Shown here: piece after piece, positions 14,932 through 61,920 of the stretch
Position numbering within the stretch: position 1 is the stretch's first letter
How the letters are laid out: each line of letters begins with the position of its first letter
Source: Strigamia acuminata
Lineage: Eukaryota; Arthropoda; Chilopoda; Geophilomorpha; Linotaeniidae
NCBI GenBank assembly: GCA_949358305.1
Contig: OX442314.1
Location: forward strand, 49,546,581 to 49,610,580
Length of the DNA stretch: 64,000 nucleotides
Direction: 5' to 3'
The notes under the pieces: model-generated
The model's database searches: none
Seen by the model: the letters and a program-made list of their open reading frames with translations, nothing else
Told to the model about the DNA's origin: nothing
Program-made: the position numbers and the translations under genes

Positions 14932-14999
14932 GGTTTAAATACTACAAGGATTTTACACTGAGCCATGATTGGCCGACACATAAAACGTCTAATCAACGT
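14932..14999 (-). promoter_or_regulatory. Promoter module: dyad, CCAAT, TATA-like box
   Basis: Read toward the gene (minus): an exact ACGTT-N5-GACGT at 14999-14985, GGCCAAT at 14974-14968, and GTATTTAAACC at 14942-14932. The gene ATG is at 14843. A further 9-bp inverted repeat, AACGTCGTA/TACGACGTT, lies just upstream. Confidence 0.6.
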
Positions 15000-15163
15000 C
15001 GTATCGTCAATACGACGTTGTGGACAAGCGCCCTCTGGCGATGTATTTGCGAACGTAACACATATTCTCCAACAAATTTCGATAGATTTTGATGGCTTTT
15101 GATGGATTTTGTTGAATTTGTCAGTGAATTGTGAATTTTTATTAATTAAAATTGTAAATTGCA

Positions 15164-16132
15164 GGGTTTAGGAATGGTAACAACTATTACATTACCTGTA
15201 CACAACCGGTCATTGGATGGTGTTGGTGTAAGTATAGACGAGGTAAATGTACGAGTAGGAGTCGGCTTTATCTTTTCTGTTGGGGAAAAATTGTTCGTAA
15301 TCATTTTATTAAGTGAATTAAGATGGACGATTTATTTGTTAATGTTTTCGACTTAGATAACGAAGATAAGGTTCTACATTTACTTTGGGACATTCAAAAG
15401 ACTAAATCTCTTCCACACACTTGGAGCACGTTGCTCGACTAGTGAGTGACATTTATTTGCTAATTTAATCGATTTATTTAATTAAAATTTTTTTTTTTTG
15501 TTTTGTTTAGTTATCCTACATTTTCTGATTACGTTAAAACCATTTCGGTGCGTTACGATGCAGCACCAATATTATTTTGGTGAAAATACTTCATTCACAG
15601 AAGAATTTAGTTGCGCTGGTTGCTACAGGTAATAAAATTAAATTCAAAAAAATATTTAATTAATTAACTATTTATATTTCAGAAAAATAAGTGCAACGAG
15701 AATGCAAGGAACAAATCTCCTTTTTGTAGCCATTAAAGAACCGTGCTCGGAGAACATGGCGACGGTTTCGTTTGTACCAGCATTTTGCCTCCAAACCAAA
15801 ATCCCGAAAGGGGTATTGTTCACAGTTTTGAATTAATTTGACTTGTTTTGAATTATTTTTAATTAATTTGACTTGTTTTGAATTATTTTGAACTAATTTG
15901 ACTTGTTTTGAATTATTTTTGACTTGTTTTGAATTATTTTTGATTGTTTTGAAATATATTTTAAATATTTTTTTTTTGATTTTGTTGAAATAAATATATT
16001 CTAATTTATATAGGTTTTGCCAAATTGGTTTTCTAAAGACAGAGTTCATAGCTTCAGTGTAGCAGAATTCGCAGACATATCACGTAACCTTATTTCAAAA
16101 AATTTAAATTTTAAAGATATTATTTATTGCTA
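15164..16132 (+). pseudogene. Rearranged exons of a calcium-channel alpha2-delta (CACNA2D-type) gene
   Basis: Several exon-like blocks match alpha2-delta subunits. 15164-15265 (after an AG) encodes LGMVTTITLPVHN ... GVGVSIDEVNVR, like the end of the Cache-type region (V-TT-LPVFN ... GVxGxDVxLEDI). 15323-15441 encodes MDDLFVNVFDLDNEDKV with a GTGAGT donor. 15511 on begins a further exon. About 15548-15638 encodes CVTMQHQYYF ... CAGCYR, like the Cys-rich C-terminal CITEQTQYFF ... CGNC, and joins to 15682-15809 (QGTNLLFVAIKEPC, like NTNLIFIMVE). 16014-16132 gives a last block ending in TAA. The frames of the middle blocks do not join cleanly and middle exons are absent, so this looks like a shuffled copy, not a working channel subunit. 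A second partial copy is at 49644-50143. Confidence 0.5.
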
Positions 16133-16526
16133 AAATAAAAATAAACAATTAAATATTGTATCAACGAAATTAGAATTTGCAAAATATAAACATGATATTT
16201 TCGTATTCTTTGGTGATTAATAGAGACCGGATAAATGCATAAATGCATGCAATATATTTTTATTCAATATATTAATATATTAATCACTGATTAACCTAAC
16301 AAAAGATAAAAATAGCGATTGAGCACGAAAATTTAAATATATAAAAATAAAGAAAAAGAAAGAAATAAAACTACCATATTTAGTATAGAATACATGTAAG
16401 AATGCAGTCTTACAGTAGCAGTCAACGGAAACTGTTAAATCCGGTGCCGCTGTGTTTGTTCCGACTGCGTGGTTAGGTTTTTTTAAATTATTTTGAATGT
16501 ACTTGAATTTTAACAAAATTTATATT
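16133..16526. other. AT-rich intergenic
   Basis: No gene was seen and no repeat was identified. Confidence 0.5.
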
Positions 16527-17036
16527 TTATCTCAACTGTATGATACTTTTGCCACTCGCTCGAATGGTCTCTACGTGTTTTGGCAATGGGTGAGTGGCTA
16601 CACCTTCCTTGACCATTTCTCTGAATCCTTCTAAAACCGATGGACCTTCAAAAGTAACTTTGCAATGGAATGGCTCACTTTGAGTGGTGAAATTAAAAGG
16701 TTTTTGGATGTCGAATTGAACTTTCTGCAAACGGGGTTGTTGAAACGCTCCAAATGTATCATTTATATATTCATGCACATCAATATCACTTTTATTCTTT
16801 TTCTTATTTCTTTTTGCGTGTTTAAATTCCGTTACCAAACTCAAACTCTGCAGAAGATTTCTATGCAGAGATTTATTCATTTTATAGCCATAATTGTTTC
16901 TCTCGCTGTGCAGTCTCATTAATGACCGTACACAGAGCCCAGTCAGCTGCATTTCTTTGTAGTTTTGATAATTCAAAGCACTTGTAACCGCCTTTAAAAT
17001 AAATTTTTTTTCAAGATTGTTTGAAAATCTCGCCAC
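16527..17036 (-). CDS. Single-exon basic protein of unknown family, start unclear
   Basis: A 169-codon frame is open up to a TAG at 17081, but no in-frame ATG occurs before the Met in YKEMQLTG (about residue 29 of the frame from 17036). So either translation starts there, a short upstream exon is missed, or the 5' end is damaged. The protein is basic (KRNKKKNK), with a C-terminal part (QSEPFHCKVTFEGPSVLEGF) that looks like folded beta/alpha structure. INDTFG resembles ISDTFG in the gene at 14103. The promoter-like region behind it is collinear with that of the 14103 gene and of the gene at 62002. Possible fast-evolving or decaying paralogue set. The family is not recognised. Confidence 0.4.
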   Translation of the reverse strand: MARFSNNLEKKFILKAVTSALNYQNYKEMQLTGLCVRSLMRLHSERNNYGYKMNKSLHRNLLQSLSLVTEFKHAKRNKKKNKSDIDVHEYINDTFGAFQQPRLQKVQFDIQKPFNFTTQSEPFHCKVTFEGPSVLEGFREMVKEGVATHPLPKHVETIRASGKSIIQLR

Positions 17037-17139
17037 AATAAAATTAGTATGAAGATTATGCGCGGCATGATAATTCGTCTAACCTTCGTAAAACGTGTTG
17101 TTCCAGCAAAATCAAAGTGATCTTTATTTCAATTCAACT

Positions 17140-17201
17140 GGTTTAAATACAACAATGGTCAGTTCTCATTGGCTGACCACAACAAAACGTTCGTCGGACG
17201 T
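17140..17201 (-). promoter_or_regulatory. Promoter module: dyad, CCAAT, TATA-like box
   Basis: Toward the gene (minus): ACGTC-N5-AACGT at 17201-17187, then GGTCAGCCAATGAG with CCAAT at 17172-17168, TGACCATT, and GTATTTAAACC at 17150-17140. The order and spacing match the module before the gene at 14103, and the dyad-to-TGACCATT part matches 61823-61870. Confidence 0.6.
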
Positions 17202-17375
17202 ATTGCAATCCGCGCGTTACGTCCACGCGCCTTCTGGGGACGTAACACGAGTGCCTCGAACCCGAAAAACTCCACAAAATCATTTCTCCTTTCTAGTTTT
17301 ACAAAACCAGGAAGAGGTAAACAATCGGAAAAAAGAAATTACGCCTGTGTTTGAGAAACACAGCACTGATTTTTA

Positions 17376-17511
17376 ATGAATTTAAATCAGTTTTTACGAA
17401 TTTTTAACGAATTTAAGTCGGTTTCCAACGAATTTAAGTCGATTTTTAACGAATTTATGTCGATTTTTACCGAACTTAAGTCGATTTTAACAAATTTAAG
17501 TCGATTTTTAT
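17376..17511. repeat. Degenerate ~24-bp tandem repeat
   Basis: GAATTTAAGTCGATTTTTAAC recurs about six times with substitutions. No coding sense. Confidence 0.6.
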
Positions 17512-18329
17512 GCTCTCAAATGTAGGAAATAGACATTTTAGGCAGAAAAATGCTCATTTTATGCACTAAATCGTAGAAAATAAACATTTTAGGCAATAAA
17601 AATGGCCATTTTAGGAAAAAATGACCCCTAACCCCGTTAACTGAAGTCGACATTGACTATCAGATGTCCCAGACAGGTGTCTGGTCGATATTTAACTGTT
17701 CAAATGGTATTGCCGTGCAAAACTTGCAGTAATTGCACATTTTGTGTCTGGCTTCAAACATGCACTGCGTTTTTTTTAACACAACCATCTGTGCGATGGC
17801 TGAAAAGGGTTCATTTTGTTGTCAGCATTTATGTAATTCTTCTACTGTTTCACTGCAGAAATAAATAATTTTATTTTTTCATTCGCAAACAACGTGTAGC
17901 TTAATTTTCTTTTTATAAACGACTAGCTTGTTTGTATTGATGAAGATGGAGAAAATTCAAGTATGAATTCGTATTTGCTGCGAGATTTCATTAGAGATTT
18001 GTTCTGTCCAGAATAGATCCCTGTTTTTCGACTGGAAACCCCGTAGCCACAACTATTTTGACTCGAGACACGAAAACGTTCGCTCGTTGAAGTAACGACG
18101 CGAAGGCGATAATTTAACCCGAATTGTACTTCAAATGCGGTTCTTTCTCACAGCATTTAACCTAAATTTTACAATTTTTGACATTTTTATAGAAATTCAT
18201 ATACAATTTTTTGTTTTTTAGGCTCTGTTTGATATCTGCGTGTTCGAATTTTCTTCCCATGTGACGATGCCGGGTGAACTTCGAATTGTTCGTATTGAAT
18301 CGTAGTGAAATAGAATTAGAAGTATTTTT
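17512..18329. other. AT-rich intergenic
   Basis: No gene could be supported. A GGAAACCCCGTAGCCACA word near 18035 recurs as GGAAACCCCGTAGTCACA near 26166, which suggests another dispersed repeat family. Confidence 0.45.
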
Positions 18330-18451
18330 TGTAAATGATTGCTTTGTTTGTGGGGGTGTAAAATCCAACTCTCTACCTCCACGTGGTCACCCCTGGATAA
18401 ACTGATGATTTGAAATCTGTCAGTGGAACCAGAAGAGAGCTCTGGTCATAT
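18330..18451 (+). repeat. Dispersed ~120-bp repeat, copy 1
   Basis: The block around AAATCCAACTCTCTACCTCC through GAACCAGAAGAGAGCTCTGG recurs at 43760-43885 in the same orientation with few differences. It has no ORF. It could be a SINE or a MITE fragment. Confidence 0.6.
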
Positions 18452-19589
18452 ATTTCCTTTGCTTTTCAAATTTCTTGAATTTGATATTTTTGTATTGTCG
18501 ATGGTCATGACGGAGTTTTCATCTCAGCTCGTTTTTTTACGAATCTTTTTTAATTTCTTGCCATCCAATCTTCTGTTTTCCGAATTCCAATCGGTATGTC
18601 ATCGAGTTGTCATCAGGCAATGATTTATGATCTTTGGTCTTCAATTTTTCCATATTTTTCCGTTTTCGTGTTCGGTGGATATAAGCCTACATTTTCACTT
18701 GGCTTTGATTTTGATTCAGTTGTGCGAGTAGATTGAAGATTTTAAAATTGAAACTATGGATGATTTTACTTATTTTACCGCACCTTTGACAATTTCGGTG
18801 TTTCATTGAGTTTCATTTGGAAATTTCATTCGATTCGGGCACATTTCAGTCGTTTATTTCCAATTTTTCTGTTCTTTTGATGCCTAGTTTTTCTCTACTT
18901 TTGCTGAATAATTATTATTACGCAGCAACTTAATGGCCGTTGATCAAAGCGTGTTATTTCTTTTCTTGCAAAACAGCGGTTGAATTGTGACAACACGTAG
19001 GCACTAAATTTGTAGATAATTTTGGTCTTGTAAGCCTGCATTGCGATGAATGTAGCCTTTGCCAATTGACATTCTGCATTCATTTGTGAATGTTTTAGTG
19101 CAGACATATGGTAAAAGGCACATGTGCCTGAGCAAGTGATAGAATTGATTCATTTTAACTCGTCGTCGTTGACTTTTAGGTTTTGTCATCTTATTATTAG
19201 TTTATAACTTATCTTAACTGTGGTTAGACCCGAACCGCTAATTTTTCATTGGTAAACAGTTGTACAGTCGTGGACAAAAATAACTTCCCTTCAGTTTAGC
19301 TGTTTTAAGTTTATCTAGCAGGTGGCAAAAAATCAATTGAGATTCAATGACACCAATTTTGACACGGTCTCTCGTCTTGCTCTAACAACAGTATTAAAAG
19401 ATAGACCGGGCAAATAATGATAGATAGGGAGAGCGTCAGAGCGTCGAAGAATATTTTCAATATTTTCTTCTACGCTAGTGCAAACCGCGTCTTCAAGTCA
19501 GGAATGCAGAAATAAATGAACAATTGAGACAACATATAGTCTCAAAAATTTCCAATGTTCAGCAGTCCTTGGCTAAAAATGTTAGCGAA
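18452..19589. other. AT-rich intergenic
   Basis: No gene was seen. Only short, unsupported ORFs occur. Confidence 0.45.
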
Positions 19590-19905
19590 TTATGACCGAC
19601 TAACAGGCTTCTTCTTCAACATTGCAAATACAAAATAAGGTGCAATGAACAAAATGGCGGTTGTATAGACAATCATGAGATATTTAAATGAGTCTTTGTC
19701 TGCTGCCACAACTTCTGTCACTTCTATATCTTTTACTACCACTTTGGGTACGGGTCGAAACTGCAGTTTCAAGTTCACTTTGAATTTAGTGTTATTGCAA
19801 AGACCGACTTCCTCCCTAAAAACATCTGGATTTGGGGCACAGTCAAATTTGCTCCAAAGTTTGTGATATATCCAGTCTAAATAAGTGGGGTCCTCGTTGG
19901 GCTTA
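19590..19905 (-). CDS. C-terminal exon of a membrane protein (partial, unknown)
   Basis: A frame of about 100 codons follows an AG acceptor-like TATCTTATAAG and ends with TAA at 19590. The peptide has an acidic/aromatic start (NEDPTYLDWIYHKLWSKFDC), a beta-strand-like part (FKVNLKLQFRPVPKVVV), and one transmembrane segment (YLMIVYTTAILFIAPYFVFA) followed by KKKP near the C-terminus. This is the layout of a type I membrane protein end. Upstream exons were not found, so it may be an isolated exon. The family is not recognised. Confidence 0.4.
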
Positions 19906-20050
19906 TAAGATAAAAAAGTTGGGGTAAATTATGCATCTTATGGTCGTGTTCCGACCGGATTTGTCCTTTGTGGTTTGTCGTTTTGTTTGCTTTTAAAAAT
20001 TATTTTTCTTTTCTTTTTAATTTTAAATTTTAAATAATTAATAAATAAAT

Positions 20051-20150
20051 ATAAAACTGGTTTAAACTGCAATTTTCTGTGCAAAAACAGGTTTAAACTG
20101 CAATTTTCTGTGCAAAAACTGGTTTAAAGTGCAATTTCATGCGCAAAGAG
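20051..20150. repeat. Three copies of a ~36-bp tandem repeat
   Basis: Units contain GGTTTAAACTGCAATTTTCT followed by GTGCAAAAAC. The last copy is diverged. Confidence 0.7.
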
Positions 20151-20269
20151 TTAATTTTTTGAATCGTTCTCTCGTCGACCATGTCACGTCGGGGGTCCGT
20201 CCTTCTTCAATGCTTTCTACATAAAAATATTTTCTTTTTGTAATGAAATTTATTTTTGAACCGTGCGTG

Positions 20270-20545
20270 ACATGTTACCAATAATTCGTCCAGTCCTGCA
20301 TACAGTTTTCTTTTGAATTCTGGTACTTTATCGTCGTGTGTCTTGTGGTAACTGTAGAAGCGATCCATTACTCTATTTCGTCAATCCTGGACGATTCCAT
20401 TTAGCGTTGTAGACTGAATGGCATTTTCTTCTGCCAGAGTTGTCGTGTGTATTTCATCTTCTTCTTCTAACTCTATTTTTAGTTGTGACAGTTGTTTGTT
20501 GATATAATCTTGTAGATGTTGGTCTTCAATATTAACAATTTCACC
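20270..20545 (-). pseudogene. Broken exon-like remnant
   Basis: On the minus strand an AG acceptor (TTTTTACAG) is followed by a Glu-rich frame (QLKIELEEEDEIHTTTLAEE) that stops at a TGA after GIVQD. The same frame then reads on with MDRFYSYHKTHDDKVPEFKR. It looks like a coding sequence with a premature stop. The family is not recognised. Confidence 0.3.
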
Positions 20546-20637
20546 TGTAAAAATATAAAGTATGTATTAATGTATTGTATACATCAACAAGCATCTGATG
20601 AAACCAATCCAAACAATCAATGAGTAGTTTTTGGCTT

Positions 20638-20931
20638 TCAAATTCGATTGCATGACCGTATTTTGACCACATGTTTCTTATTGAGATACAGTTTTAAACA
20701 TATAATCCGGAATGTAGCATTGGATGGCCTTTTTGCGAGTTCAGCTTTCCTTAATAGCTCCAAATCTTGAGGATCCGTCATCTCGATGCATTCTATATTG
20801 TGATTAGGTGATGACGGTTTGGCAGATTTAAAATAATCCTCTATTTTATTCGGCAGCTTATACGAAGAGATGTTTTTGAGAATTATCCGGCTACACCTTT
20901 TCTTTGTGACGGTGACGACCACAACTCCCAT
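20638..20931 (-). CDS. Hypothetical 97-residue ORF
   Basis: ATG at 20931, with a basic product including MTDPQDLELLRKAELAKRPS. It has no homology I can name and no promoter features. It may be an exon or chance. Confidence 0.25.
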   Translation of the reverse strand: MGVVVVTVTKKRCSRIILKNISSYKLPNKIEDYFKSAKPSSPNHNIECIEMTDPQDLELLRKAELAKRPSNATFRIICLKLYLNKKHVVKIRSCNRI

Positions 20932-22500
20932 TTAACAATGGTACCGGGAAGAGATCGCAATAAATAAACAGTGAATACAATATGAGATAAATACAAGACA
21001 ACAGAACTGTCAATACACTACAGTTTATTGTTGGCAAACAATATGAATGAGTTAAATTTTACATGGGACTAATGCCGACATTTGGCAAGTTAAATCAGCT
21101 ATTAAACTATACAAAGAATTGGCCAACTGGCCCTAGAATAATATCAATACGGGTCTGGAAAACGGGAGCGGTTTCCCCATCGCTCGACCTGTTATAGATG
21201 TCATCTAAGCCGGATGGCTATTTCCCTGGAGTCCGATACGGCTTCGCTGGTTCCTTGGTTCGCTTGTGTAAATTATCGCACGTCGATAAATCGAATGATC
21301 TGAGCCATGCGGTTGACTTTGTCTGCACCGCCACAACTGAGGTTGGATATTGGTGTAAGTAAATGTGTTCATTTACTTATCAATATTCCGAGTATGAATT
21401 ATATTTAATTCATAAGTGTTGTGAGTTTTCTACTGGATATTTCGTCGATAAGTTGTCGTCAACTTATTGGTCACATTGAGTTTCAATGTATTCGTGTTTT
21501 TAAGTCTTCTGACTTGATTAGTTAACTTGTTGCCAAGTTAATATTGTTCTGTCGTAAATGTAAAGGATAAATGTTAGACTTCCCTTCGCAACACACAATT
21601 GCCGTCGATAGAAAACGCCTTGCCATGCAGAACGGTATCAAGCGTTCCCTGCGCCGCAACACGGTCGTTCGTCTAGCGATTGACGGTATCACGTACACAG
21701 GAGTCGATAGCTCGCGGCTCCGCACAGCAGTTTAGTCCTTCGCGGTACTAATAACAAAACGACTGCTTTGGCACCGAATACCATGAGAATCAGCTTGCCA
21801 AACACTTGGTGCTACTCGTGGTTACTGTGAAACAGACTGCTTTGGCACCATCAGGTGAAGGAACCAACTCTCAACAGTCCCGGTGCTTACTTGCGGTTAC
21901 GAGATGCGTTCATACCGAAAATGACCACTCAGTCCTGCCCGGAGGATACTGATTTGCACAGAAGGCAGGTTCTCCTCGGCGAGACCGTAAATTGAAACAT
22001 GTATGCAACATAACAATCCAATACGTCGGCTTCAATTGCCGGTGGTTGCATGATTCGGTAGAATCATGCCGCGGTTCTTTGTGAATAAATCAGCAAAGAA
22101 CCAAAAGGTTTTTCATGGACAACGAATCATATTTCATAAGTAACAATACCAATCAGAAATAATCAAACAGAGCCGCGGAATGGCCGGTTGTTTGGGTTTA
22201 TATAACCTGGCTGGATTAAGGATTTAATCCAATCAACCAATCGGAACATGAGTTCCACGAATCCCTCCAATCCCGTATCACCGGAAGTGGATACGGAGGA
22301 GCAGTATGCTAATTCACACCACAACCGGAACTGGATACCCAGGACCGGAAATGGATCCACCAATCACATTGATCGGTTGATCGATGGATTACCAAATCTC
22401 CATTTCTGCTGAACTAGAGATTCCAATCACTTTTAATGTGAACAATAATCATTAATATATATTTATATTAATCTTAATAAAGTGTTGTTTTATACAAATA
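20932..22500. other. Hairpin-rich non-coding region
   Basis: At least nine perfect short hairpins with unrelated stems were found. At 21356-21541: TAAGTAAATG-TGTT, TATGAATTA-TATT, ATAAGTTG-TCGT, ACATTGA-GTT, AAGTC-TTCT and TTAACTTG-TTGC, each closed by its own reverse complement. At 22048-22296: GCATGATTC-GGTA, GGTTCTTTG with a 12-nt loop, GGATTAA-GGAT, GGAAC-ATGA and CCGTATC with a 10-nt loop. Most loops are 3-4 nt. The word GACTGCTTTGGCACC repeats near 21770 and 21835. An AATAAA lies near 22477. It may be an LTR or leader of an unidentified element. No ORF was found. Confidence 0.55.
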
Positions 22501-23076
22501 AATATATTCTTATATTTATTTACTAGCTTCTCAACTCGCATTTCGAATTTACCGCCGAAATGTAATCGCGCCATCTAGTGGCGACTTGGAGCATTGACAA
22601 ATGCGGGTTTTGCCGAAAACTTACTAAAATTCAGCCGTGTTATTAATAAATAGCACTTATAAACCGTCATATCTTTAAAAAATACCACCCATGGTCTTAG
22701 CAATTGTTTATACTTTAAATTCTATGCCATATGTGGAGCTACCTCCTCTGGCCAAGAATCTGGTTATGTGTAGTCTATAATTGCTAAATCTTCATCAAAT
22801 AAGTATTTATTTCCCGTTTTTTTGTCCCAAGAGACTACAGCAACTTGCTCGGTGTTTGTCAACCATCCTTCGAGAGGAAGGTTTGTAAAAAAATTCGTGT
22901 CCCAAACCAATTTTTACTGTTAGTCTTTGCAGCCAATCATCCAGTTTCTGAGATTTGTTTGGATCTGGTAGACAGACAAATGACCAATCCTCTGCATCTG
23001 GATTGTGAGACCCCACAGTTCAAAACCACGCAGGATTAGCCACCCATCGTTTGGAAGTTTTGCTTGTATGCTGATT
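22501..23076 (-). other. Unassigned; possible transposase tail ORF
   Basis: The ORF at 22807-23016 (FVCLPDPNKSQKLDDWLQRL) is weakly reminiscent of a transposon-associated domain. It could be the downstream part of the transposase remnant at 23077-23447. Nothing else was seen. Confidence 0.25.
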
Positions 23077-23447
23077 TCAGGCAGCCATAACGTTAACAAG
23101 AAGTGAAAGAGACGCTAGTAATGTCACTTCCTGTAAACATTCGCTTCTTACCCACAATTCCTCAGCTCGCAGTCCAGTGGTATGTAGGTCTATGGTGCAA
23201 CATACTTTGTAAAAAAAAATGCGCAAAGTGAAGTTGATAGATTTCTCGAAGTGCTGCAAGTTAAGGTCACATTAGGAGCAGGCACTAAGTTATTTTCGAC
23301 AATAGGCCTAAATGTACCAGTAGACTCTTGGAGGCAGAGAAAAACCGTGTCCAGCACATCTCCATCTGCAGAAATTGCATATTGAATAGTATAATTATGT
23401 GTTGCCTTTCCAGTTGACGACTGCAAAATCGAATGTTTTGTGTTCAC
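23077..23447 (-). pseudogene. Pogo/Tigger-type DDE transposase remnant
   Basis: The frame at 23447 contains THNYTIQYAISADGDVLDTV followed by FLCLQESTGTF. This matches the start of the DDE_1 catalytic core of pogo-superfamily transposases (pattern H-YTI ... ISADG-L-P-FLCLQEP-G-F). The continuation lies in another frame (23259-23077) and lacks the downstream catalytic residues. It is a dead fragment. Confidence 0.55.
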
Positions 23448-43009: not shown

Positions 43010-43474
43010 CTAAAATTTTCTTTTTGTGGTCTGAACTTTTTGGGGTGTCGGAGGAATGATGTCATCATCACTATCATCATCAATGTGAAATTTCATGTCG
43101 ATCACTATTTTATGTGTCGCAGAAAAGACATCATCATCATCAGTTTCTTTCGTCTGCTTAGCAGATTTCTTGATTAGCTTTCGACTTGATCTCTTCTTCT
43201 TCAACTTATTCTTCAAGCTGATTGCTAATTTCTCGTTGATCTCCTCAACAAGTTGAATTCCAAGCTTCTTCCTAGCAGCTAAATCAACACTGTTAGCATG
43301 CTGTTTTCCATAAAATGTTTGGCTTTTGATTCCTTTCGTTTTCTTGATACGGAATCCAGATGAGGATCCATCCAAGTGGTCGAAATTCAGAAATTGTTTG
43401 GCGCGTCCATAATTTCTTTCTCGCTGACCACGACGACTTTTCGGAGTTTCCAACGCGATTACACGAGGCGCCAT
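43010..43474 (-). CDS. Single-exon basic/acidic protein, 154 residues, unknown family
   Basis: ATG at 43474 (MAPRVIALETPKSRRGQR) was preferred because a TATA box lies only about 50 bp upstream. The product starts with an Arg-rich segment, has a helical middle (AARKKLGIQLVEEINEKLAI), a strong nuclear-localisation-type block (LKKKRSSRKLIKKSAK), and a tail with two Asp runs (ETDDDDVF, DDDSDDD) ending PQKVQTTKRKF. This is a composition seen in chromatin-associated proteins. An exact ACGTC-N5-AACGT dyad and a TATATATG box lie upstream, as for the other single-exon genes here. The family is not recognised. Confidence 0.5.
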   Translation of the reverse strand: MAPRVIALETPKSRRGQRERNYGRAKQFLNFDHLDGSSSGFRIKKTKGIKSQTFYGKQHANSVDLAARKKLGIQLVEEINEKLAISLKNKLKKKRSSRKLIKKSAKQTKETDDDDVFSATHKIVIDMKFHIDDDSDDDIIPPTPQKVQTTKRKF

Positions 43475-43522
43475 ATCGGAATGGAAGTAGAAAAGTAATT
43501 GATTCATTAATTTTAAAAACCT

Positions 43523-43563
43523 GCATATATACACAGCAGATTCATCGAACGTCGGTCTAACGT
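43523..43563 (-). promoter_or_regulatory. Dyad plus TATA box
   Basis: Toward the gene (minus): ACGTT-N5-GACGT at 43563-43549, then GTGTATATATGC at 43534-43523. Further ACGT words lie upstream (near 43575, 43597, 43607). Confidence 0.6.
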
Positions 43564-43759
43564 GACGGATCAAACGTTTATTTTGAGAAACCAAACGTAC
43601 ACAACACGTATACACTTTTTATTTCGCAATTGAACGAGCACCAACTCCAAGTTCTGTTGGAGTATTTCGGTTTGCGAGAGCTCCTACTTGATTGGGTGTA
43701 TGTGGATTTGTTTATAGGACTCGCGAATCTCTTTCTTGTACTGGTAACAATTCTTGTTT

Positions 43760-43885
43760 TTTGTAAATGATTTTTTTGTTTGTGGGCTTATAAAATCCAA
43801 CTCTCTACCTCCACGTGGTCACCCCCGGATAAACTGATGATTTGAAATGTGTCGGTGGAACCAGAAGAGAGCTCTGGTCATATAC
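43760..43885 (+). repeat. Dispersed ~120-bp repeat, copy 2
   Basis: Second copy of the block at 18330-18451. It is followed directly by ACAGGGTGTTTC, the start of another dispersed repeat. Confidence 0.6.
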
Positions 43886-52995: not shown

Positions 52996-53137
52996 GCCTC
53001 ATAAGAGAACACCGAAACAGACTCTGCGACGACAGTGCCGGAGCTTGTGCTGGTGCTGGTGCGGGGAGAATAGAGCACTAATACAAAGATTAATCAAGAC
53101 ACCTCACAGGCGAGCCAAACACCCAGTGTACAGAAAC

Positions 53138-53401: not shown

Positions 53402-53415
53402 CCCTTCCCCCCTCA
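53402..53415 (-). other. Polypurine tract of the intact Gypsy element
   Basis: GAGGGGGGAAGGG on the minus strand directly before the 3' LTR. It overlaps the last codon region of gag-pol. Confidence 0.8.
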
Positions 53416-56400
53416 TTTTGGAACATAATCCTTGAGATATTTCGGTTGGTTCTTGAGCCTGTCTGATCTGCGAACGGGCGTGGCCGCTGGTGGAAGGCGG
53501 GCCTGAGCAACAGGAGTCTGAGAGCTTCGTTGGAGCTCAACCAAGCGCTGGGTCAGCACGGCCGGGTCGAGCTGATGAGCCGGTCTAGGAGTCTGGCGAT
53601 CGGCCACGTGAGCTGATACAGTGGCCGTGCGATATACTGGCTCCATAGATGCTGACGGTTGATTTCCGGTCGTAGGTGGTGACCTAATAGCAGATGGCGA
53701 TGATGGCTGCAATGGTAATGGTGATAACAATGGTTGATGAGGCGAATTGAGTGAAGTTGTGTTGGGAGAAGGGTCGAACATAGCCGGTGAATACATAGGC
53801 GCGCTACCCTCCGACGTATGAGGTGATGTGAACGCGGATGATGATGATGAAGAAGGACCCGAGTCAGTTCCCCGTTCTGCAAGCAAGTTTGCTCGCGCTG
53901 CAAAATCCGAAATTGGATTAAAATGGGGTGATGAAGGTTGAACCAGGGCCGATGCCGCTGGAGGTGTCTGTGGGATAAGGGGCAGGGCAGCTGCCGGGGC
54001 AAGACTGGCCGGAGGGCCTGGTGTTTCCCCCCGAAATTTTCGTAGATGATTCAAATGCCGGACGATTAGATTACCGGCATCTGTACGAATTTCGTAAACC
54101 AGTGTGCCACGCACGGCGACAACCGAGCCCCTGGCCCATTTAGGGGCTTGCGCGAGAAATACGCGATACCAAACTGGTTCACCTAAACGCAAACGCAAAG
54201 CAGAAGGCAGGGCGACGCCAACTGGGTCGGGCTCTCTGGGAAAAACCCAGGTTTGAACCAATTGGTGCCAAACGTCAGCTATTTGACGGTTAAAAAGGCG
54301 GACGGATGGGGAAATTCCGTCGACACCAGAAGGCGTGGCGTGCTGCGTAAGCAAGATGCGGGGAATGACTAGGTCCCATGCTGTAGATGAAGCTCGTGCT
54401 AGCTGCTCCTTGGTCCATCTAACAGCTTTTTCAGCCCGGCCGTTAGACTGTGGGCTGTACGGAGGTGAAAACAGGTGTGTGATGTGATTGGCTCGAGTAA
54501 ATTCGCCCATCTCGCTGGAGCTGAATTGAGGGCCATTGTCGGTGACCAGGACCCGGGGCAGACCATGCGTGGCAAAAAGACGCCTAAATACTGTAATGAT
54601 TGCCGCGGATACAGTAGTCCGCATGGCTGCAACCTCAATCCACGCAGAAAATGCGTCGACAACTACCAAAAACATGGTGCTGTGGAGAGGTCCGGCCAAG
54701 TCTGCATGGATTCGGACCCAGGGGCCGTCGGGAACTGGCCAGGGCACTAAGGGAGCCCGTGGAGACAAGGGGCGCGTTTGCTGACAAGGATTACATTGCG
54801 CCACAAACTGCTCAATGTCACGGGACATCCCTGGCCACCAGACAAATGGTCTGGCCCGGCGCTTCATTGCGACAATTCCAACATGATGGAAATGCAAAGA
54901 TTGCAGCAAATCCGGGACCAGAGACCGAGGCAATACTACACGATCATGCACCAACAAAAGCCGGTGTGCAGAAGACATCACACGCCTGCGCTGCCAGTAA
55001 GATGATGGAACAGCTACTGGGCGTAACGCGGGCCACGATGCAGCTATGTATGCTGCTAAGACCTGAAGGAGGGGGTCGGCTAACGTCGCCTGAACCAAGC
55101 GCTCCCTGGAAATGAATGTAGAATGAGATGTGGAGAGGCTTCGAATGTCCGCCGGGTATGCAGCGTCTGACTCAACCCCGAGCGCATCCGGATCAGGAAG
55201 AGGCAAACGGCTCAGGGCATCCGCCTCCCTCAAGTGAGTGCCGGGCCTGTGAAATAAGTCATAATGGTAAGTGCTTAACAACAAGGCCCACCTCAACAGC
55301 CTAGGGCTGATGATGTTTGGGATGGGCTTGTTTGGTCCCAGTATCCCGAGGAGGGGTTTGTGGTCGGTATAAATAGAAACAAAAGTGCCAGCCAAATGGC
55401 TATGGAACTTCTTCAAACCGAACACAATGGCCGCTGCCTCCTTGTCCAGCTGAGCATAGTTCTGCTCAGCCGACGACAAGGTACGTGAGGCATAGGCAAC
55501 AGGACGCTCGGAGCCATCACTCATTTTGTGTGCCAATACAGCACCTAAGCCATATGGCGAAGCATCGCAGATTAGCAACAAAGGCTTCTGTAAATCATAG
55601 TAAGTGAGGACTTCCGGCGACGCTAAGATCTTTTTTAGTTGTTGGAAAGCGGCCTGCTGCGTGGGACCCCACACCCACTCCGCTTCCCTCTGCAGAAGAG
55701 CGTAGAGGGGAGCGGATAGGTGCGCCATCCTCGGGACATAGGAAGCGTAATACACCACCATGCCAAGAAAGGACTTGAGTGTCGTGACGGTCGCTGGAGC
55801 TGGACAGTCCAAGACTGCCTGGACCTTAGACATTGCAGGAGCTATGCCATGTTGTGTTAATAAATGGCCCAGGTATTGAACACTAGTCCGAACCGACTGA
55901 CACTTGTCACGTGAGACCCTCAAGCCCTTGTTGGCAAGTCGATCGAAAACTAAAACTATGGTGTAAAAATGTGATTCAAGGGTCGGGGTTGCAATTAATA
56001 TATCGTCCTGATATACTAACACACCAGGCAGACCACGAAATATGCCGTCCACGATGCGTTGGAAGATGCCGGAGGAGGGCGCAGTGCCAAATGGCAAACG
56101 TGTAACGGCCATGAGACCCCTATGAGTATTGACCGCCACTAATAAAGATGATCGGGCGGTCAAAGGGATCTGCTGATACGCCTGCCTCAGGTCCAAGAGT
56201 GTGAAGTACATGGCATTGGCCAGTCCGGCAAGGAGGTCGGCAACCAATGGTAGAGGATAGGGGTCGGGAAGAATGAACCGATTGACAGTTGCTCTGTAAT
56301 CTCCACACAAACGCAAACCCCCATTGGCCTTGGTGACAACGACCAATGGGGTGGCCCACTCAGAATACTGGATGGGCCGAAAAACCCCCTGGCTAATCAA

Positions 56401-58476
56401 CTGGTCAATAGCCACATCCACCAAAGGTCGCTTCGCATGCGGAATGGGTCGTGGGCGAAAGAACACTGGGCGCGTGCCCGGTTGAACATGCAAATCAACG
56501 GGAGGCCCCGTGTAAGTCCCAATGCCGGGCTGGAAAACAATTGCATAATTCTTATGAATGTACCTCACAATTGACTCGGGAGACTGAGGCGGCGGAGGCA
56601 AATCCATGTTGGATGTTTGAAAAATGTTGGCATGATCAAAGTGCGGTGAAGTGCTGAAACTGTGATTCAAAGGCGAGGTTAAATGAAGTGAAGTTGACAA
56701 TGAAACCTCGCCCTCGTTATGAATTAGTGAATTAATGCACAATGCCTCGTCCACGGCATACGCCAAACCCGGGATTAACCCAAAACGTGCGATAGAGTCG
56801 CGTCCCATAATTGGTGGACCAGGGCTCCGAGTGACCACCACGGGCATCCGGTGAGTGGTGGCATGGACGGTGACCGAAACCAAAACTACACCCAATAACT
56901 CAATCAACGCATGAGGGTAGGCAAATAAATTAATGGCGGCAGGGTACCGCCTTACCACCTGACCAGACTGTTGTTCAATGGCGGTCAAGACATCGGATCC
57001 CACGACGGTGTACTCGGAGCCTGTGTCCAACTGAAAATGAACAAAAACATGGTTAATATGAGCCTCAACCATGATGGGTGGGAGCAGACACTTATCGCTC
57101 TTGAGATAGTATAGTGGGTAATCCATGCTTAAATTCGATTCATTAACAAACCCTTGATTGGCATTGGCATTATTCATGTGAGATGAAGGTGAAAGGTTTA
57201 ATGGTTGCATATTGGGTTGTTGACCGCCAAGAATGCCAGAAACTGGTGTAGGCACAGCAGCTTGACCACCGGGTGGATGATAAGAGTCGGGTGGAACGTT
57301 GGCTGTCCATTGGTAATCCGACATTGGCTGTGTGGCCACAAAGTTCATCGGGGAGGTCGACTGACGAAAACGAGGAGAGGGTCGCTGAGGAAAGGTCCCC
57401 GCTGGTTGGGGAGAGGATGACCCCGGGCCAAATTGGGTGGCTCGAAGAACATTCTGAGGCGAAGGTTGACCGTTCCTACATACAGCGGCGATGTGTCCTG
57501 TGCGACCACATGTGCGACAGACAGCAGCCTGAAAAGGGCAGACTGCTCGGGAGTGGGCTTGGCCGCAACCGTTGCACATAAACCTTGAACCCGAAGATGA
57601 GCCAACGTTAAACCTCTGGAAAGATTGACCAGACTGTCCAAGTCTCCCCGGTGGTCTTGCTACTTGCGCGGTCAGAGTGGCGCCTGGCATACGAGCGCCG
57701 TCCCATGGTCCCCGCTGTTGGGATCTGCCAGCAGATTTGGAAAAAGGCAACCTGGGCTTAGGGGAGAATCGGTTAGAAGATGTACCGCTCTGCAGCTGGA
57801 AAAGAGCCGCTTGGGGGGCTTGGATGGTGGAAATCTGCTGCATGGGCATTACGGTGGAGGACCTATAGATGGCGTTGCCCTGGGTGGCGGCTTGAAAGCC
57901 GATGGCCATAGATGAGGCTTTGTCTAGAGTAAGATTCTCCTCCCCAAGCAACTTCTGCCGCAGTGGTTCAATTCCAACTCCCCTGATGAGTTGGTCAAGC
58001 ACAAGTTGCTCTATTTGCTCGGTCGTGGTCGCTCCCGTCCGTTCTGCGAGACCCCGGAGAGCAGCGATGTAGTTGGACATGGTCTCTTCCGGGGCACGCA
58101 GACGTGAGCCCAACAAATGCCGCTGGACAACCGGGCGAGGTGCGGGGGTGAAGTGCTCCTCAAGTTTCGTAGTGATGTCCACAAAGGTTTGTTTATTCAA
58201 CTTCTTGGGGGCAAACAGATTGTGGGCCAGTTGATACGTGGCAGGGCCCACGACAGACAAGAGAAACGCACGCTTTTTGTCGGCTGGAATGGCATTCAGA
58301 GTCACCAACTCCTCAAAGTGCTCGAGATATAACGACCAGTCTTCAGCAGTAGAACCCAAAAAGGGCACTGGAGTGCCTAAGAGCGCTGGTGGAATGGCAG
58401 ATGCAGGTGGATCGGCCATTGGTGGTAATGAGACTGGAAGAATTAATTCTTTGTTGTCCACTAAATCTGCAAGCAT
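53413..58476 (-). CDS. Gag-Pol polyprotein, 1687 residues, uninterrupted
   Basis: A single ORF with ATG at 58476. Gag part about 1-300 (capsid-like: TAEDWSLYLEHFEELVTLN), then two zinc knuckles at about 301-333 (CNGCGQAHSRAVC and CRTCGRTGHIAAVC), protease with LDTGSEYTVVG at about 484, RT with LLDLRQAYQQIPL, RLPFGTAPS and the catalytic YQDD, RNase H starting LLLICDASPYGLGAVLAH, integrase HHCC finger (FHHVG ... CNPCQQ), catalytic residues in HADLAGP, VTDNGPQF and SNGRAEKAV, then a C-terminal Ser/Pro-rich tail. Gag and Pol are fused in one frame, so no frameshift is needed. The layout fits the K02A2.6-like group of animal Gypsy elements. All key residues are present. Confidence 0.95.
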   Translation of the reverse strand: MLADLVDNKELILPVSLPPMADPPASAIPPALLGTPVPFLGSTAEDWSLYLEHFEELVTLNAIPADKKRAFLLSVVGPATYQLAHNLFAPKKLNKQTFVDITTKLEEHFTPAPRPVVQRHLLGSRLRAPEETMSNYIAALRGLAERTGATTTEQIEQLVLDQLIRGVGIEPLRQKLLGEENLTLDKASSMAIGFQAATQGNAIYRSSTVMPMQQISTIQAPQAALFQLQSGTSSNRFSPKPRLPFSKSAGRSQQRGPWDGARMPGATLTAQVARPPGRLGQSGQSFQRFNVGSSSGSRFMCNGCGQAHSRAVCPFQAAVCRTCGRTGHIAAVCRNGQPSPQNVLRATQFGPGSSSPQPAGTFPQRPSPRFRQSTSPMNFVATQPMSDYQWTANVPPDSYHPPGGQAAVPTPVSGILGGQQPNMQPLNLSPSSHMNNANANQGFVNESNLSMDYPLYYLKSDKCLLPPIMVEAHINHVFVHFQLDTGSEYTVVGSDVLTAIEQQSGQVVRRYPAAINLFAYPHALIELLGVVLVSVTVHATTHRMPVVVTRSPGPPIMGRDSIARFGLIPGLAYAVDEALCINSLIHNEGEVSLSTSLHLTSPLNHSFSTSPHFDHANIFQTSNMDLPPPPQSPESIVRYIHKNYAIVFQPGIGTYTGPPVDLHVQPGTRPVFFRPRPIPHAKRPLVDVAIDQLISQGVFRPIQYSEWATPLVVVTKANGGLRLCGDYRATVNRFILPDPYPLPLVADLLAGLANAMYFTLLDLRQAYQQIPLTARSSLLVAVNTHRGLMAVTRLPFGTAPSSGIFQRIVDGIFRGLPGVLVYQDDILIATPTLESHFYTIVLVFDRLANKGLRVSRDKCQSVRTSVQYLGHLLTQHGIAPAMSKVQAVLDCPAPATVTTLKSFLGMVVYYASYVPRMAHLSAPLYALLQREAEWVWGPTQQAAFQQLKKILASPEVLTYYDLQKPLLLICDASPYGLGAVLAHKMSDGSERPVAYASRTLSSAEQNYAQLDKEAAAIVFGLKKFHSHLAGTFVSIYTDHKPLLGILGPNKPIPNIISPRLLRWALLLSTYHYDLFHRPGTHLREADALSRLPLPDPDALGVESDAAYPADIRSLSTSHSTFISRERLVQATLADPLLQVLAAYIAASWPALRPVAVPSSYWQRRRVMSSAHRLLLVHDRVVLPRSLVPDLLQSLHFHHVGIVAMKRRARPFVWWPGMSRDIEQFVAQCNPCQQTRPLSPRAPLVPWPVPDGPWVRIHADLAGPLHSTMFLVVVDAFSAWIEVAAMRTTVSAAIITVFRRLFATHGLPRVLVTDNGPQFSSSEMGEFTRANHITHLFSPPYSPQSNGRAEKAVRWTKEQLARASSTAWDLVIPRILLTQHATPSGVDGISPSVRLFNRQIADVWHQLVQTWVFPREPDPVGVALPSALRLRLGEPVWYRVFLAQAPKWARGSVVAVRGTLVYEIRTDAGNLIVRHLNHLRKFRGETPGPPASLAPAAALPLIPQTPPAASALVQPSSPHFNPISDFAARANLLAERGTDSGPSSSSSSAFTSPHTSEGSAPMYSPAMFDPSPNTTSLNSPHQPLLSPLPLQPSSPSAIRSPPTTGNQPSASMEPVYRTATVSAHVADRQTPRPAHQLDPAVLTQRLVELQRSSQTPVAQARLPPAATPVRRSDRLKNQPKYLKDYVPK

Positions 58477-59256
58477 ACGTTATTGTATTTCACACTGCAT
58501 GAATGCAGGATAACGGTGGGTGCGACACGCCGAGCAAAAGGTTGGGCTAATCGACGCACGCTGGAACGACGCACGCGTAGTCAACGCACACTTGATCAAT
58601 GCACTGTTGGTCGACGCACCTGGCATCGCAAATCGTGTCGGCATACAACATCGTGTTGATTTGACACACACGTGGTAGGCGCTTATCGTTCGTGTCATGT
58701 CCAAACCAACCATATGAAAGAAAAGTTCACCAAAACTGTACTTAAATTGCTAAGCAAAATGTCTTATCTGGATTTAGAAGAACGAGGATGTCCGAGGAGT
58801 AGTCTGGATCAAGCAAAACTTTGCGAAACATTTGCCCTCATGTGACATGAGTTCTGCACTCGAATCCGTATGTTTGCCGTTCGTCCAACGTTCGAAAACG
58901 CACAGTCGACGTCCGTCCGGGGCTCGAAAACGTCTGGCCGACGCTCGTTCGGCACTCGAAAATGTATGGTCGATGTTCCACACGAACACGGCTGTGCACT
59001 CGTAAAAATTTCGCAATTACTTGTTCCAGTGATGTGTCCTTGTTATCCATTTGATGCGGCTTGTTGCATGTCATTAATTGTTAATCCAGTTGATGAAGTG
59101 ATTCAGAAGATGTAACCACAGTCGAACACATATTAAAAGATTCAAACATAAACTTGAAATTCGATTTAAGACAACGCGGAAATTTCTTATCTGTAAGTTT
59201 TGTCCATTTCAAAACATTGTAAAAATGAAGATCTAAATCACTGTTCACGACGCCAA
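58477..59256 (-). other. Leader of the intact Gypsy element with tandem repeats
   Basis: TCGACGCAC-type repeats lie at about 58500-58625 and a ~35-bp CTCGAAAACGTCTGGCCGACG-like repeat (shown in part) at about 58860-58985. The minus strand next to the 5' LTR reads TTGGCGTCGTGAACAG (59256-59241), a candidate tRNA primer site beginning TGG one base in. Confidence 0.6.
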
Positions 59257-59520
59257 TGTGATATACGTCGTTGACATTCACTCTATTCGTTTTGATGGCC
59301 TAAATTCCGTGCCTTTTGAGGCACAGTTGGAAGGAAACATGATCACGCTGTGAATTTCGAGTCAAGACTGATTTATTGTGTCTAGAATATGTGTCGTCAA
59401 GTTTGTGTTGCTAGGTTGAAACCTAGCAACTTAAGAATCAAAGTATTGTTTTAATTAGAGTAACAATTGGTGTACGAAATAAATGAGATTCAAAATCGAG
59501 ATATAAGTAAATACATAACA
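59257..59520 (-). repeat. 5' LTR of the intact Gypsy element
   Basis: 264 bp, identical by eye to 53138-53401. Confidence 0.96.
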
Positions 59521-59592
59521 GAAACATCGCTCCTTCTAACTCAGAAAACCAACACCAAGTTTTACACGATTTGCTCTATACGATAGTTGTAT

Positions 59593-60413
59593 TGTGACAG
59601 TGCAGCAAGTTTGCATAAGAAGAGTTTGAAAATTCGCACTCACAACATTCTGCTTCAATCATAAGTTATATTAAATGTAAATCCAACGTGTTAGCCATCA
59701 GACCTCTAATTGTGAAAGCAACCATCAAATAGTTTGCTTTTCTGCCCCAAGCAACACATAAGTTGATTTCTAAAAGGATCAGAAGAACCAAAGTCACCAC
59801 TGGAGCTTTTTCAGCTTGACTCAAGATTGAGAGTTAGATTTAACACCCCCACAGAAAACTAAAAAGTGAACGGATAAACCCAAAAAATTAGCCCTAAACC
59901 TATTGGGAAGCTAAGCTGATGCAATCGTAAAAGCCCGTTTCTTTTTTCATAAATAGTACTCAGTAATTAATTAAATTCACAAATGCCCAGACTGGATTGT
60001 ATGTTAAACCAACAGAAAAGCAAATAAATAATTTTGCAATCGAAAAGGAGATGGGCAAACAGAAAATGGAACGTAAAATACACATTATATTCGATTAACT
60101 TAAGAAAACATCAAATTATCGGACCAAAACCCAACCTTCATCCAGTTCTTTGGTGATGTAAAAATTAAATTCTTCCGTCAATAGATCGAAAAAAATGAAA
60201 ATTGAGAACACCATCGAATCGAGAGAAAACAAGCCCAGGTGGAATACCGAACAGAAACACGCGGCTGTTGCCACGCCGACGGAAAAGCATCACTATTGGT
60301 TGAAATGCATCACGCGCCTCAAAATTAATAACGTTTCTTCCCACCAGAGCGACGCAGCAACACTGAGAGGGAATTTTAAATTTTTATCAATAATAAATTT
60401 TAGACGAATGCAC
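59593..60413. other. AT-rich intergenic
   Basis: No gene is supported. The ORF at 60195-60458 overlaps the promoter region of the next gene and has no recognisable domain. Confidence 0.45.
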
Positions 60414-60451
60414 ACGTTCAGTCGACGTGTATCACTTATCATCTATAAATA
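60414..60451 (+). promoter_or_regulatory. Dyad plus TATA box
   Basis: ACGTT-N5-GACGT at 60414-60428, then TATAAATA at 60444-60451. The gene ATG is at 60523. Confidence 0.65.
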
Positions 60452-60522
60452 CGGCTAAACCGAAATATGAATCACATTTTCGCGCTTCATCCTCATCGAA
60501 CTCACTCAATATTCCTAGAGAA

Positions 60523-60744
60523 ATGGACGCAAAACAAACCGATATTTTTCACAGAAAACTCTTTCACGTAGATGAAATACTAAGACAAAGCATAACTAAG
60601 CTCAGTCACATACAGAAGCTCGAGAAACGGCAGCAGTTAAATCGTTTCGTGCTCATAACGAACACGATGGAGAAAATGGCGCGCAAGAAGGACGAATACG
60701 AGAATAAAGTAAAAGTAATGAACCGTAAGTCATTCCATTTCTAA
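60523..60744 (+). CDS. Small SERTA-like domain protein, 73 residues
   Basis: ATG at 60523 follows a TATA box by about 75 bp. The protein is nearly all one domain: ILRQSITKLSHIQKLEKRQQ followed by LNRFVLITNTMEKMARKK. This fits the SERTA pattern (SxxKL ... LxRxVLIxNTL). SERTA proteins bind cell-cycle and transcription regulators such as CDK4 and E2F/DP complexes, so a nuclear regulatory role is inferred. A GTAAGT near the 3' end could act as a donor, but an AATAAA at 60770 right after the stop supports a single-exon gene. It is a tandem paralogue of the gene at 60975. The domain call is from the motif only. Confidence 0.55.
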   Translation: MDAKQTDIFHRKLFHVDEILRQSITKLSHIQKLEKRQQLNRFVLITNTMEKMARKKDEYENKVKVMNRKSFHF

Positions 60745-60769
60745 AAACACAATTAATCAATTTTATTCC

Positions 60770-60775
60770 AATAAA
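60770..60775 (+). terminator. Polyadenylation signal
   Basis: AATAAA 26 bp after the stop of the small SERTA-like gene. Confidence 0.5.
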
Positions 60776-60878
60776 ATATTATTAATAATATCACATTTCA
60801 AAAATAAAAAGAAATAAAATTTTAATTTGCGCGCATGGTGGCAAAAATGTCAAAAGATGTTCTTACGACGTATATCGC

Positions 60879-60916
60879 ATGTTCGGAAAACGTGACGAGA
60901 TTATATAGTATAAAAA
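60879..60916 (+). promoter_or_regulatory. Degenerate dyad plus TATA box
   Basis: ATGTT-N5-AACGT at 60879-60893 differs from the dyad at two of ten fixed positions. TATAAAAA is at 60909-60916 and the ATG at 60975. Confidence 0.45.
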
Positions 60917-60974
60917 CAGATACCACCACGTCAAATTAAAATTCAATGATCGTGTTTCCCGCTTTCCAACCAGA

Positions 60975-61586
60975 ATGAACGCACTTGCTCGTTATTACAA
61001 AAAGGAAACACGTCTTGCAGATCTAATCGTAACACTTAGTAAATCCAAACTCGAACATCTTCGATCGCTAGAATCACGCGTGTATTTAAGTCGGTGTCTC
61101 CTCATCGTTAACACATTAGCAGCGACGGCGCGAACGAAATATCGTTGCAGAAACCATTTGAAAAAGCATAAACGAAGAAACCGTCGACTCAAAAGAGAAA
61201 AACAAGAGAAAAGTCAAGTTGAATTCAACATTCCGGCGTCACCCGCCGTTGCCAAGCCCGGCAGGGAAATCCTGACTGCAAAACGATTGCTAATTCAATG
61301 TTGTAAAAAATTGCAAAGCACCGCCAACTTACATCGCAACACTATAAATACGTTCAGAAACAAGCTAAGTCGGGCGATTAAATCGGTACACGAAAAGCCA
61401 TTGGAGAAGGATGAAACAGAACCGTTGCGTAAACGACAAAAACTTCAAGACGAGCTCTCAGAGGCCGAGCATCTCGCCACGTTACAACAGTTTTTCACGG
61501 AATCAGTTATTTTTCTTGCTAGTATGTTTTTCCTGATTTCCTCATTCTTAATAATTGTTTATGTTGTATTTAAAGCCTATTATTAA
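60975..61586 (+). CDS. SERTA-like protein with C-terminal membrane anchor, 203 residues
   Basis: ATG at 60975, about 60 bp after TATAAAAA. Residues about 15-55 repeat the SERTA-like pattern of the upstream gene: DLIVTLSKSKLEHLRSLES, then YLSRCLLIVNTLAATARTK. A very basic segment follows (HLKKHKRRNRRLKREKQEK), then a second helical region (GREILTAKRLLIQCCKKL), another Lys/Arg patch, and at the C-terminus one hydrophobic segment (VIFLASMFFLISSFLIIVYV) ending KAYY. The arrangement is that of a tail-anchored membrane protein, unusual for SERTA proteins, which are normally soluble and nuclear. It may sit in the nuclear envelope or ER. Function is inferred from motif only. It probably arose by tandem duplication with the gene at 60523. 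Confidence 0.5.
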   Translation: MNALARYYKKETRLADLIVTLSKSKLEHLRSLESRVYLSRCLLIVNTLAATARTKYRCRNHLKKHKRRNRRLKREKQEKSQVEFNIPASPAVAKPGREILTAKRLLIQCCKKLQSTANLHRNTINTFRNKLSRAIKSVHEKPLEKDETEPLRKRQKLQDELSEAEHLATLQQFFTESVIFLASMFFLISSFLIIVYVVFKAYY

Positions 61587-61822
61587 TCAGTGATTGTGAT
61601 TAATAATCACAATCATTATTCTTAAAGTCAGTGAAACTCGCAGTGTAAAATATTATTAGTAAGAATTATTCAATTCTTTATTCTTATGTCCATTAAATTT
61701 GAGTTAAGATTGATAGAAACTTGGTTCTTTATTATTGTATAATTAGTCTAGTTTAGCATCCTCCATCTTGTTTTCCAAGTGAAAAACCAAGATCGCGACA
61801 TTATTTATGCCAAAGTTTTGAT

Positions 61823-61920
61823 ACGTCCGGTAAACGTTCTGTGGTTACAGCCAATAGGAGCTGACCATTCATGTAATGATCATACGTCGGTCCAACGTTG
61901 TCACACACAGGGTATATAAA
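61823..61920 (+). promoter_or_regulatory. Two dyads, CCAAT and TATA box
   Basis: Exact ACGTC-N5-AACGT at 61823-61837 and again at 61884-61898, CAGCCAAT with CCAAT at 61851-61855, GAGCTGACCATT just after it, and GTATATAAACC with TATATAAA at 61913-61920. The first dyad through TGACCATT is collinear with the promoter at 17140-17201. Confidence 0.7.

Follow-up and report, generated by a model that had tools for sequence, protein, structure and literature searches.

In long terminal repeat (LTR)-mediated retroposition, template switching occurs between the RNA of an LTR element and a host mRNA (PMC5408686). Early zygotic genes of Aedes aegypti share the upstream motif VBRGGTA, and the Drosophila TAGteam is named in the same account (PMC3311545). 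Drosophila also has germline CenH3 paralogues, for example Cid5 (PMC8200288); here and below these three papers are cited from excerpts. Here we describe a dyad motif, ACGTC-N5-AACGT, that occurs six times in a 64,000-nucleotide stretch of the Strigamia acuminata genome (the window, C1:49546581-49610580). The motif keeps a set spacing to a TATA box before many intronless nuclear-gene copies and in several mobile elements, which suggests one common on-switch. We think it probable that its relaxed form, ACGTY-N5-RACGT (the relaxed dyad), serves as a promoter-proximal element in a transcription programme specific to this lineage, common to LTR families and intronless nuclear-gene copies.

CREB/ATF and HINFP are factors with ACGT cores, and ACGT likewise forms part of each half-site of the dyad; we know of no described ACGT dyad with an N5 spacer. 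A literature search on written forms of the motif found no paper, and a search for a comparable retrogene or germline promoter motif, judged on titles and abstract openings, found nothing fitting.

A motif scan of the window recovered all six exact matches of a preliminary description at the same coordinates. The relaxed dyad recovers the same six. In 100 dinucleotide shuffles the mean was 0.23 and the maximum 1, a higher expectation than the value of about 0.1 given previously. With one mismatch allowed there are 11 matches against 3.9 expected, and among spacings of 0 to 20 only spacing 5 (6 matches) and spacing 15 (4) exceed a single match. The sites, with one decayed relative, are as follows.

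14985 to 14999, minus strand: dyad site, ACGTT-N5-GACGT in gene direction, sharing its alignment position with the 17187 site.
17187 to 17201, minus strand: dyad site, ACGTCCGACGAACGT, 37 bp from TATTTAAA with CCAAT in between.
43549 to 43563, minus strand: dyad site, ACGTT-N5-GACGT in gene direction, 17 bp from TATATA.
60414 to 60428, plus strand: dyad site, ACGTT-N5-GACGT in gene direction, 15 bp from TATAAAT.
60857 to 60871, plus strand: decayed dyad, ATGTTCTTACGACGT; of 6 gene copies compared, 5 retain it unbroken.
61823 to 61837, plus strand: dyad site in an LTR U3 fragment, CCAAT next.
61884 to 61898, plus strand: second dyad site of the 62002 gene, 14 bp from TATATAAA.

Positions and ORFs (open reading frames) bear out that the six sites lie upstream of intronless genes. 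The preliminary description had also placed each within 200 bp of a gene start, which does not hold for 17187, whose Pfam-supported ORF begins at 16952, 235 bp away. Nearness to a TATA box was found at 43549, 60414 and 61884, where the box starts 14-17 bp off on the gene side; it is 37-43 bp off at 14985 and 17187, and 61823 has its nearest box at 75 bp. The 60857 variant, said to differ by two changes, has one mismatch to the relaxed dyad. The window sits in segmental duplications about 75-81 kb apart, and the six sites are not independent events, because several of the genes lie in such duplications and three of the sites go back to a single LTR. At 14999-15023 the 14985 site is overlapped by a longer inverted repeat, AACGTCGTAT-N5-ATACGACGTT.

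We scanned the whole assembly (237.5 Mb in 157 contigs; C1, at 67 Mb, is 28% of it) and found 1389+1412 = 2801 matches to ACGTC-N5-AACGT. The ten spacings N6 to N15 together gave 5934 (mean about 593), so that N5 is 4.7-fold above the mean, and ACGTC-N5-GACGT is found 1568 times, its reversed control 424 times. Repeats, element ORFs and 11-bp direct repeats make up most of the sampled matches, and from their base pattern the bulk of raw matches appears different in kind from the promoter element. Direct 11-bp repeats of AACGTCGNNNN are frequent (e.g. L024, L028 and L082) and account for much of the raw N5 excess. The TATA distances and the ORFs downstream carry the signal, rather than the raw count, because the share of matches linked to a TATA box about equals that of the reversed-pattern control.

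Distances were taken from one row per distinct 15-mer, 44 from the 100 listed of 208 forward places and 51 from the 97 reverse places, with a single context kept where a 15-mer had several. For 54 of 95 distinct 15-mers the start of the TATA box lies 12-20 bp away (9 of 31 positions; P 1.5e-8), and both orientations behave alike (forward 24/44, reverse 30/51). A second class, at 34-40 bp, holds 23 of the 95, several with CCAAT between. Hand-chosen representatives (39 and 45) gave 50/84 at 12-20 bp (P 6e-9), or 36/50 for TATATAA boxes only (P 4e-10), and automatic clustering of the forward list gave 17/30 (P 0.0014). An unbiased sample of 68 distinct sites (from 74, drawn from 100 places listed) has 5 TATA boxes at 12-22 bp, a range set after the window sites, against 0.8 expected (P 0.0017). 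The base pattern of TATA-linked sites is also different; in 18 of 30 families ACGTC is followed by C or T. The reverse places were listed in full, and 50 of the 97 and 23 of their 45 representatives (P 0.001) are on C1.

To read what stands behind these promoters we took 21 loci, 16 forward and 5 reverse, one per family, chosen before their downstream sequence was seen; families already recognised as mobile elements were left out, and 16 of 18 and 5 of 8 chosen were read. An ORF of at least 100 amino acids begins within 260 bp of the TATA box at 16 of the 21 (P 6e-10 at 15%; the loci are not all independent). The forward loci contribute 12/16 (7/8 + 5/8; P 1.3e-7) and the reverse loci 4/5, while 15% of 2986 random points and 14% of 196 TATWWAA points have such an ORF by chance. 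Ten of the 16 ORFs are recognisable as nuclear proteins by database match, and the full set is given here.

L141: Elongin C, PDB match at 8e-28.
L144: SRPK, database match at 7e-45.
L145 and L147: RRM/SR proteins, database match.
L146: FLYWCH, database match.
L148: TFIIA-gamma, database match.
L152: PRP38, database match.
L153: transportin-3, database match.
L154: PUF60, database match.
L160: PABP2-like, database match.
L149: Elongin C paralogue by eye, with a Skp1_POZ match below cut-off.
L159: SRPK paralogue by eye, with a Pkinase match below cut-off.
L143, L155, L157 and L158: ORFs without a name; L155 is FLYWCH-like by eye only, with no Pfam match.

One further locus from the first genome sample, L027, has the dyad 15 bp from TATTTAA and an ORF for PRP8 domain IV (E 5.5e-65). 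The two SRPK paralogues carry ACGTC-AATCC-AACGT (L144) and ACGTT-AACCC-GACGT (L159) at the same place; since they differ yet both keep the Y/R dyad, the base changes preserve it. As read from the open frames, the promoter set fits early-zygotic traits, namely few introns, a TATA box and a common proximal motif.

In the mechanism we propose, a dimeric factor would bind the two ACGT half-sites, one helical turn apart. The element would act 12-20 bp upstream of a TATATAA-type box, or 34-43 bp upstream with a CCAAT box between, and the bound factor may assist TFIID on the TATA box at its set spacing; the two favoured spacings would be about two turns apart. The element is present in the U3 of several LTR families and upstream of many intronless, often truncated and locally amplified nuclear-gene copies, which belong to splicing, transcription and the kinetochore and are over-represented on contig C1. 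LTRs probably helped to spread it, with template switching giving at least the CENP-N copy its promoter, and the CENP-A copies bear a U3 fragment of an LTR. Shared regulation of this set, and expression in the germline or early embryo, would follow the same scheme. The idea of a shared promoter element, put forward in the preliminary description, is strengthened by the fixed spacing, the TATA distance, the lack of introns and the many nuclear proteins, far beyond the window. It needs amending in that LTRs carry and spread the element and most raw matches are of another kind. The genome-wide scan proposed there yields the N5 excess, the distance peak and the ORFs behind, with most sampled matches lying away from a TATA box.

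Several observations weigh against a common promoter element. The motif followed by TATWWAA within 10-40 bp is found at 208/2801 places compared with 42/725 for the reversed-pattern control, and the other orientation at 97/2801 compared with 31/725. The 12-20 bp range came from the window sites and the first sample, after the fact, and the forward distances reflect C1 alone, because the 100 listed of 208 forward places are all on C1. Among the 68 sampled sites G follows ACGTC in 66% and A precedes in 60%, as in the 11-bp direct repeats, and a TATWWAA of the right polarity within 90 bp follows the motif in 6 cases and lies on the opposite side in 4. Five of the 21 loci (L142, L150, L151, L156 and L161) have no ORF of at least 100 amino acids within 260 bp, Pfam and PDB names were assigned after the ORFs were found, and the copies are not independent, with Elongin C and SRPK each present twice among the 21. 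Retrocopy status is established for CENP-N and CENP-A only.

The genes behind the window sites are listed next.

14103 to 14843, minus strand: intronless, charged ORF of 246 amino acids, Pfam match sub-threshold, no name.
16484 to 17073, minus strand: CENP-N retrocopy, intron-less and 5'-truncated, with an ORF of 141 amino acids at 16527-16952; the parent, with introns, is on C3.
43010 to 43474, minus strand: intronless ORF of 154 amino acids, promoter and ORF duplicated together at C1:37.7 Mb and C8:10.7 Mb.
60523 to 60743, plus strand: SERTA-like small ORF of about 73 amino acids, Pfam E 0.0025, below cut-off.
60975 to 61586, plus strand: SERTA-like ORF of 203 amino acids with a C-terminal membrane tail, kinship to 60523 judged by eye.
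62002 to 62451, plus strand: CENP-A copy, intron-less, histone fold cut short; the parent, with introns, is on C6.

The CENP-N match of ORF 16527-16952 has a Pfam E of 7e-11 and a PDB CENP-N E of 1.6e-4. This copy lacks the introns of its C3 parent, is truncated at its 5' end and has a 100% copy 74.8 kb away. The CENP-A copies lack the introns of their C6 parent, and nearby longer copies of 191-220 amino acids (L052, L053 and L055) are not cut short. Their divergent H3 fold and extended N-terminus set them apart from core H3, as in the CENP-A class. A further CENP-A-like copy (L061) lies at 10899-11048, adjoining a stretch of N letters. Among core-histone H3 control loci of about 3 kb each, the relaxed dyad was found in 1 of 6 (L064), about 450 bp from the gene. 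The earlier suggestion of nuclear-protein targets is supported by the CENP-N and CENP-A copies and by many genes beyond the window. A database search with the 43010 protein found no relative outside its own genome. With a Ka/Ks of 0.15-0.17 its family is under constraint. The corresponding values are 0.33 (SRPK), 0.66 (Elongin C), 0.5-0.64 (CENP-A copies) and 0.22-0.61 (SERTA copies); constraint is therefore clear in some families and weak in others. The 60975 ORF has 10 long genome matches, 7 on C1 (itself included) and 3 on C8. Its membrane tail (residues 158-202) recurs genome-wide, 47 of 57 matches spanning the tail alone, and at the loci read such tails end ORFs of about 100 amino acids, often in same-strand pairs about 12 kb apart, an arrangement like that of a long element's terminal repeats.

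Three of the six sites are related to LTRs. The reference element, L117 (C8:2512950-2515500), is an LTR element that encodes only gag, a protein of 393 amino acids with zinc knuckles. Its two 244-bp LTRs are identical, and its sequence shows a 4-base target duplication. For a related LTR, L109, the 40 best matches of 231 candidates include nine same-strand copy sets 1-2 kb apart. The LTR-like parts in the window are the following.

14855 to 15070 (ends approximate), minus strand: LTR-like promoter block with CCAGAGGGCG, the dyad, CCAAT, TATTTAAA and AATAAA in the order of an LTR.
17071 to 17107, minus strand: 37-bp leader, 86% identical to the stretch directly before the L117 gag ATG.
17109 to 17276, minus strand: LTR segment, 72.5% identical to the L117 LTR over 171 bp.

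The promoter of the CENP-N copy thus reads as an L117-family LTR. The copy has the marks of an LTR-mediated retrogene, with introns absent, an intron-bearing parent, and LTR and leader joined 5'. A BLAST of 15100-17300 to L117 for its 3' LTR matched only at 17071-17276. For the 14855-15070 block, which occurs at 11 places genome-wide (10 on C1), the order of parts and the alignment agree with the LTRs, with short BLAST matches only. The 14985 site falls at the LTR alignment position of the 17187 site, in the opposite C/T and A/G state. The CENP-A copy L053 has a U3 fragment 82% identical to the L117 LTR over 82 bp, and the 61823 site aligns with L053; the window copy has other sequence in place of the part preceding the U3 site. 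Sites 14985, 17187 and 61823 thus align as one U3 site of one LTR-retrotransposon family. The preliminary description had named descent of all six from one transposon family as one outcome that would count against it, and half of them have such a source. In 21 aligned rows of the LTR family the ten fixed motif columns have a mean conservation of 0.885 compared with 0.767 for all columns, with the exact motif in 7 rows and the relaxed dyad in 9. The regions of 43549 and 60414 are multi-copy and had no match to the LTRs found here, by BLAST among the loci compared. L104 and L108 resemble LTRs of other families and have the motif 16 bp from TATA. A sequence conserved in the L117-type LTR family, CGCCAGAGGGCG (17240-17255 and 15020-15035), resembles a CTCF core.

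The alternative that survives best, though we consider it somewhat unlikely, is that the dyad is an ancient germline or early-zygotic promoter element of the host that LTR elements acquired later, so that the regulon was not built by LTRs. Many element-bearing gene promoters indeed lack LTR homology to the families seen here, and in the C8 SERTA paralogues L038 and L039 a dyad with one mismatch precedes the ATG by 104 bp, which matches the C1 copies. However, the C8 site falls in a different alignment column from the C1 site, and the intron-bearing CENP-A and CENP-N parents have no exact relaxed dyad within 3 kb (best 2 and 1 mismatches). The dyad could also have hitch-hiked, as a piece of LTR U3s or segmental duplicates that landed near genes, with no regulatory role. 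The single LTR position behind three window sites, the TATA spacing in L104 and L108 and the duplications around the window all suit such an origin. Nevertheless, it appears improbable given that 95 distinct 15-mers in unrelated promoters share a TATA distance without other visible shared sequence, that intact ORFs stand behind 16 of the 21 sampled loci, and that the 43010 family is constrained. An origin of the N5 excess in CpG-rich 11-bp direct repeats, with the promoter cases falling among them by chance, holds for the bulk of sampled matches, which look like such repeats, but is most improbable for the promoter subset with its other base pattern and peaked TATA distance.

Returning to the common promoter element, its wider consequence can be put only tentatively. 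A lineage-specific dyad and its factor might drive LTR retrotransposons and, with them, a "shadow" nuclear machinery of intronless genes for splicing, transcription, nuclear import and the kinetochore, a regulon built from retrocopies by LTR capture. This set would be concentrated on C1, which may be sex-linked, ampliconic or germline-specialised. If this is true, one promoter element common to retrotransposons and retrocopies can assemble co-regulated intronless genes for nuclear machinery, extra centromere-protein copies among them. The idea would yield genome-wide predictions on where the dyad lies with respect to transcription starts, on co-expression, and on a drop in activity without the dyad.

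Several window repeats and the reverse motif-TATA places concentrate on C1, mainly at 30-60 Mb, and for the repeat at 43495-43870, 36 of the 40 best matches (of 462 candidates) are on C1. The window also has a GC-rich tandem repeat of CCGTTAACGGC-like units at 46-1891. Scans of the window with Rfam and for tRNAs gave no hits. We considered a giant virus or a provirus as the source of the window and rejected both; gypsy-type elements and CENP genes are present and point to an animal-like eukaryote. The relatives found for the reverse transcriptase are no more than 33-49% identical and, where named, come from a mixture of animals, and a search with the CENP-A sequence gave general H3 and CENP-A entries.

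Compared with LTR-mediated retroposition as set out in the excerpt (PMC5408686), the CENP-N copy likewise joins an LTR and leader to a 5'-truncated, intron-free copy of a host mRNA. It differs in that BLAST found no 3' LTR of the L117 family within 15100-16484 and in that the copy was amplified with a segmental duplication. The small size, absence of introns and TATA boxes may recall early zygotic or germline genes (PMC3311545, PMC8200288, in the parts cited). Like the Aedes early zygotic genes in that excerpt (PMC3311545), these are short and often intronless, with a TATA box and a common proximal motif, whereas the dyad is unrelated in sequence to VBRGGTA. Like the Drosophila CenH3 paralogues of the cited excerpt (PMC8200288), the CENP-A genes are extra copies beside a parent. 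Unlike those, they are intron-free copies with LTR-derived promoter pieces, accompanied by a CENP-N retrocopy.

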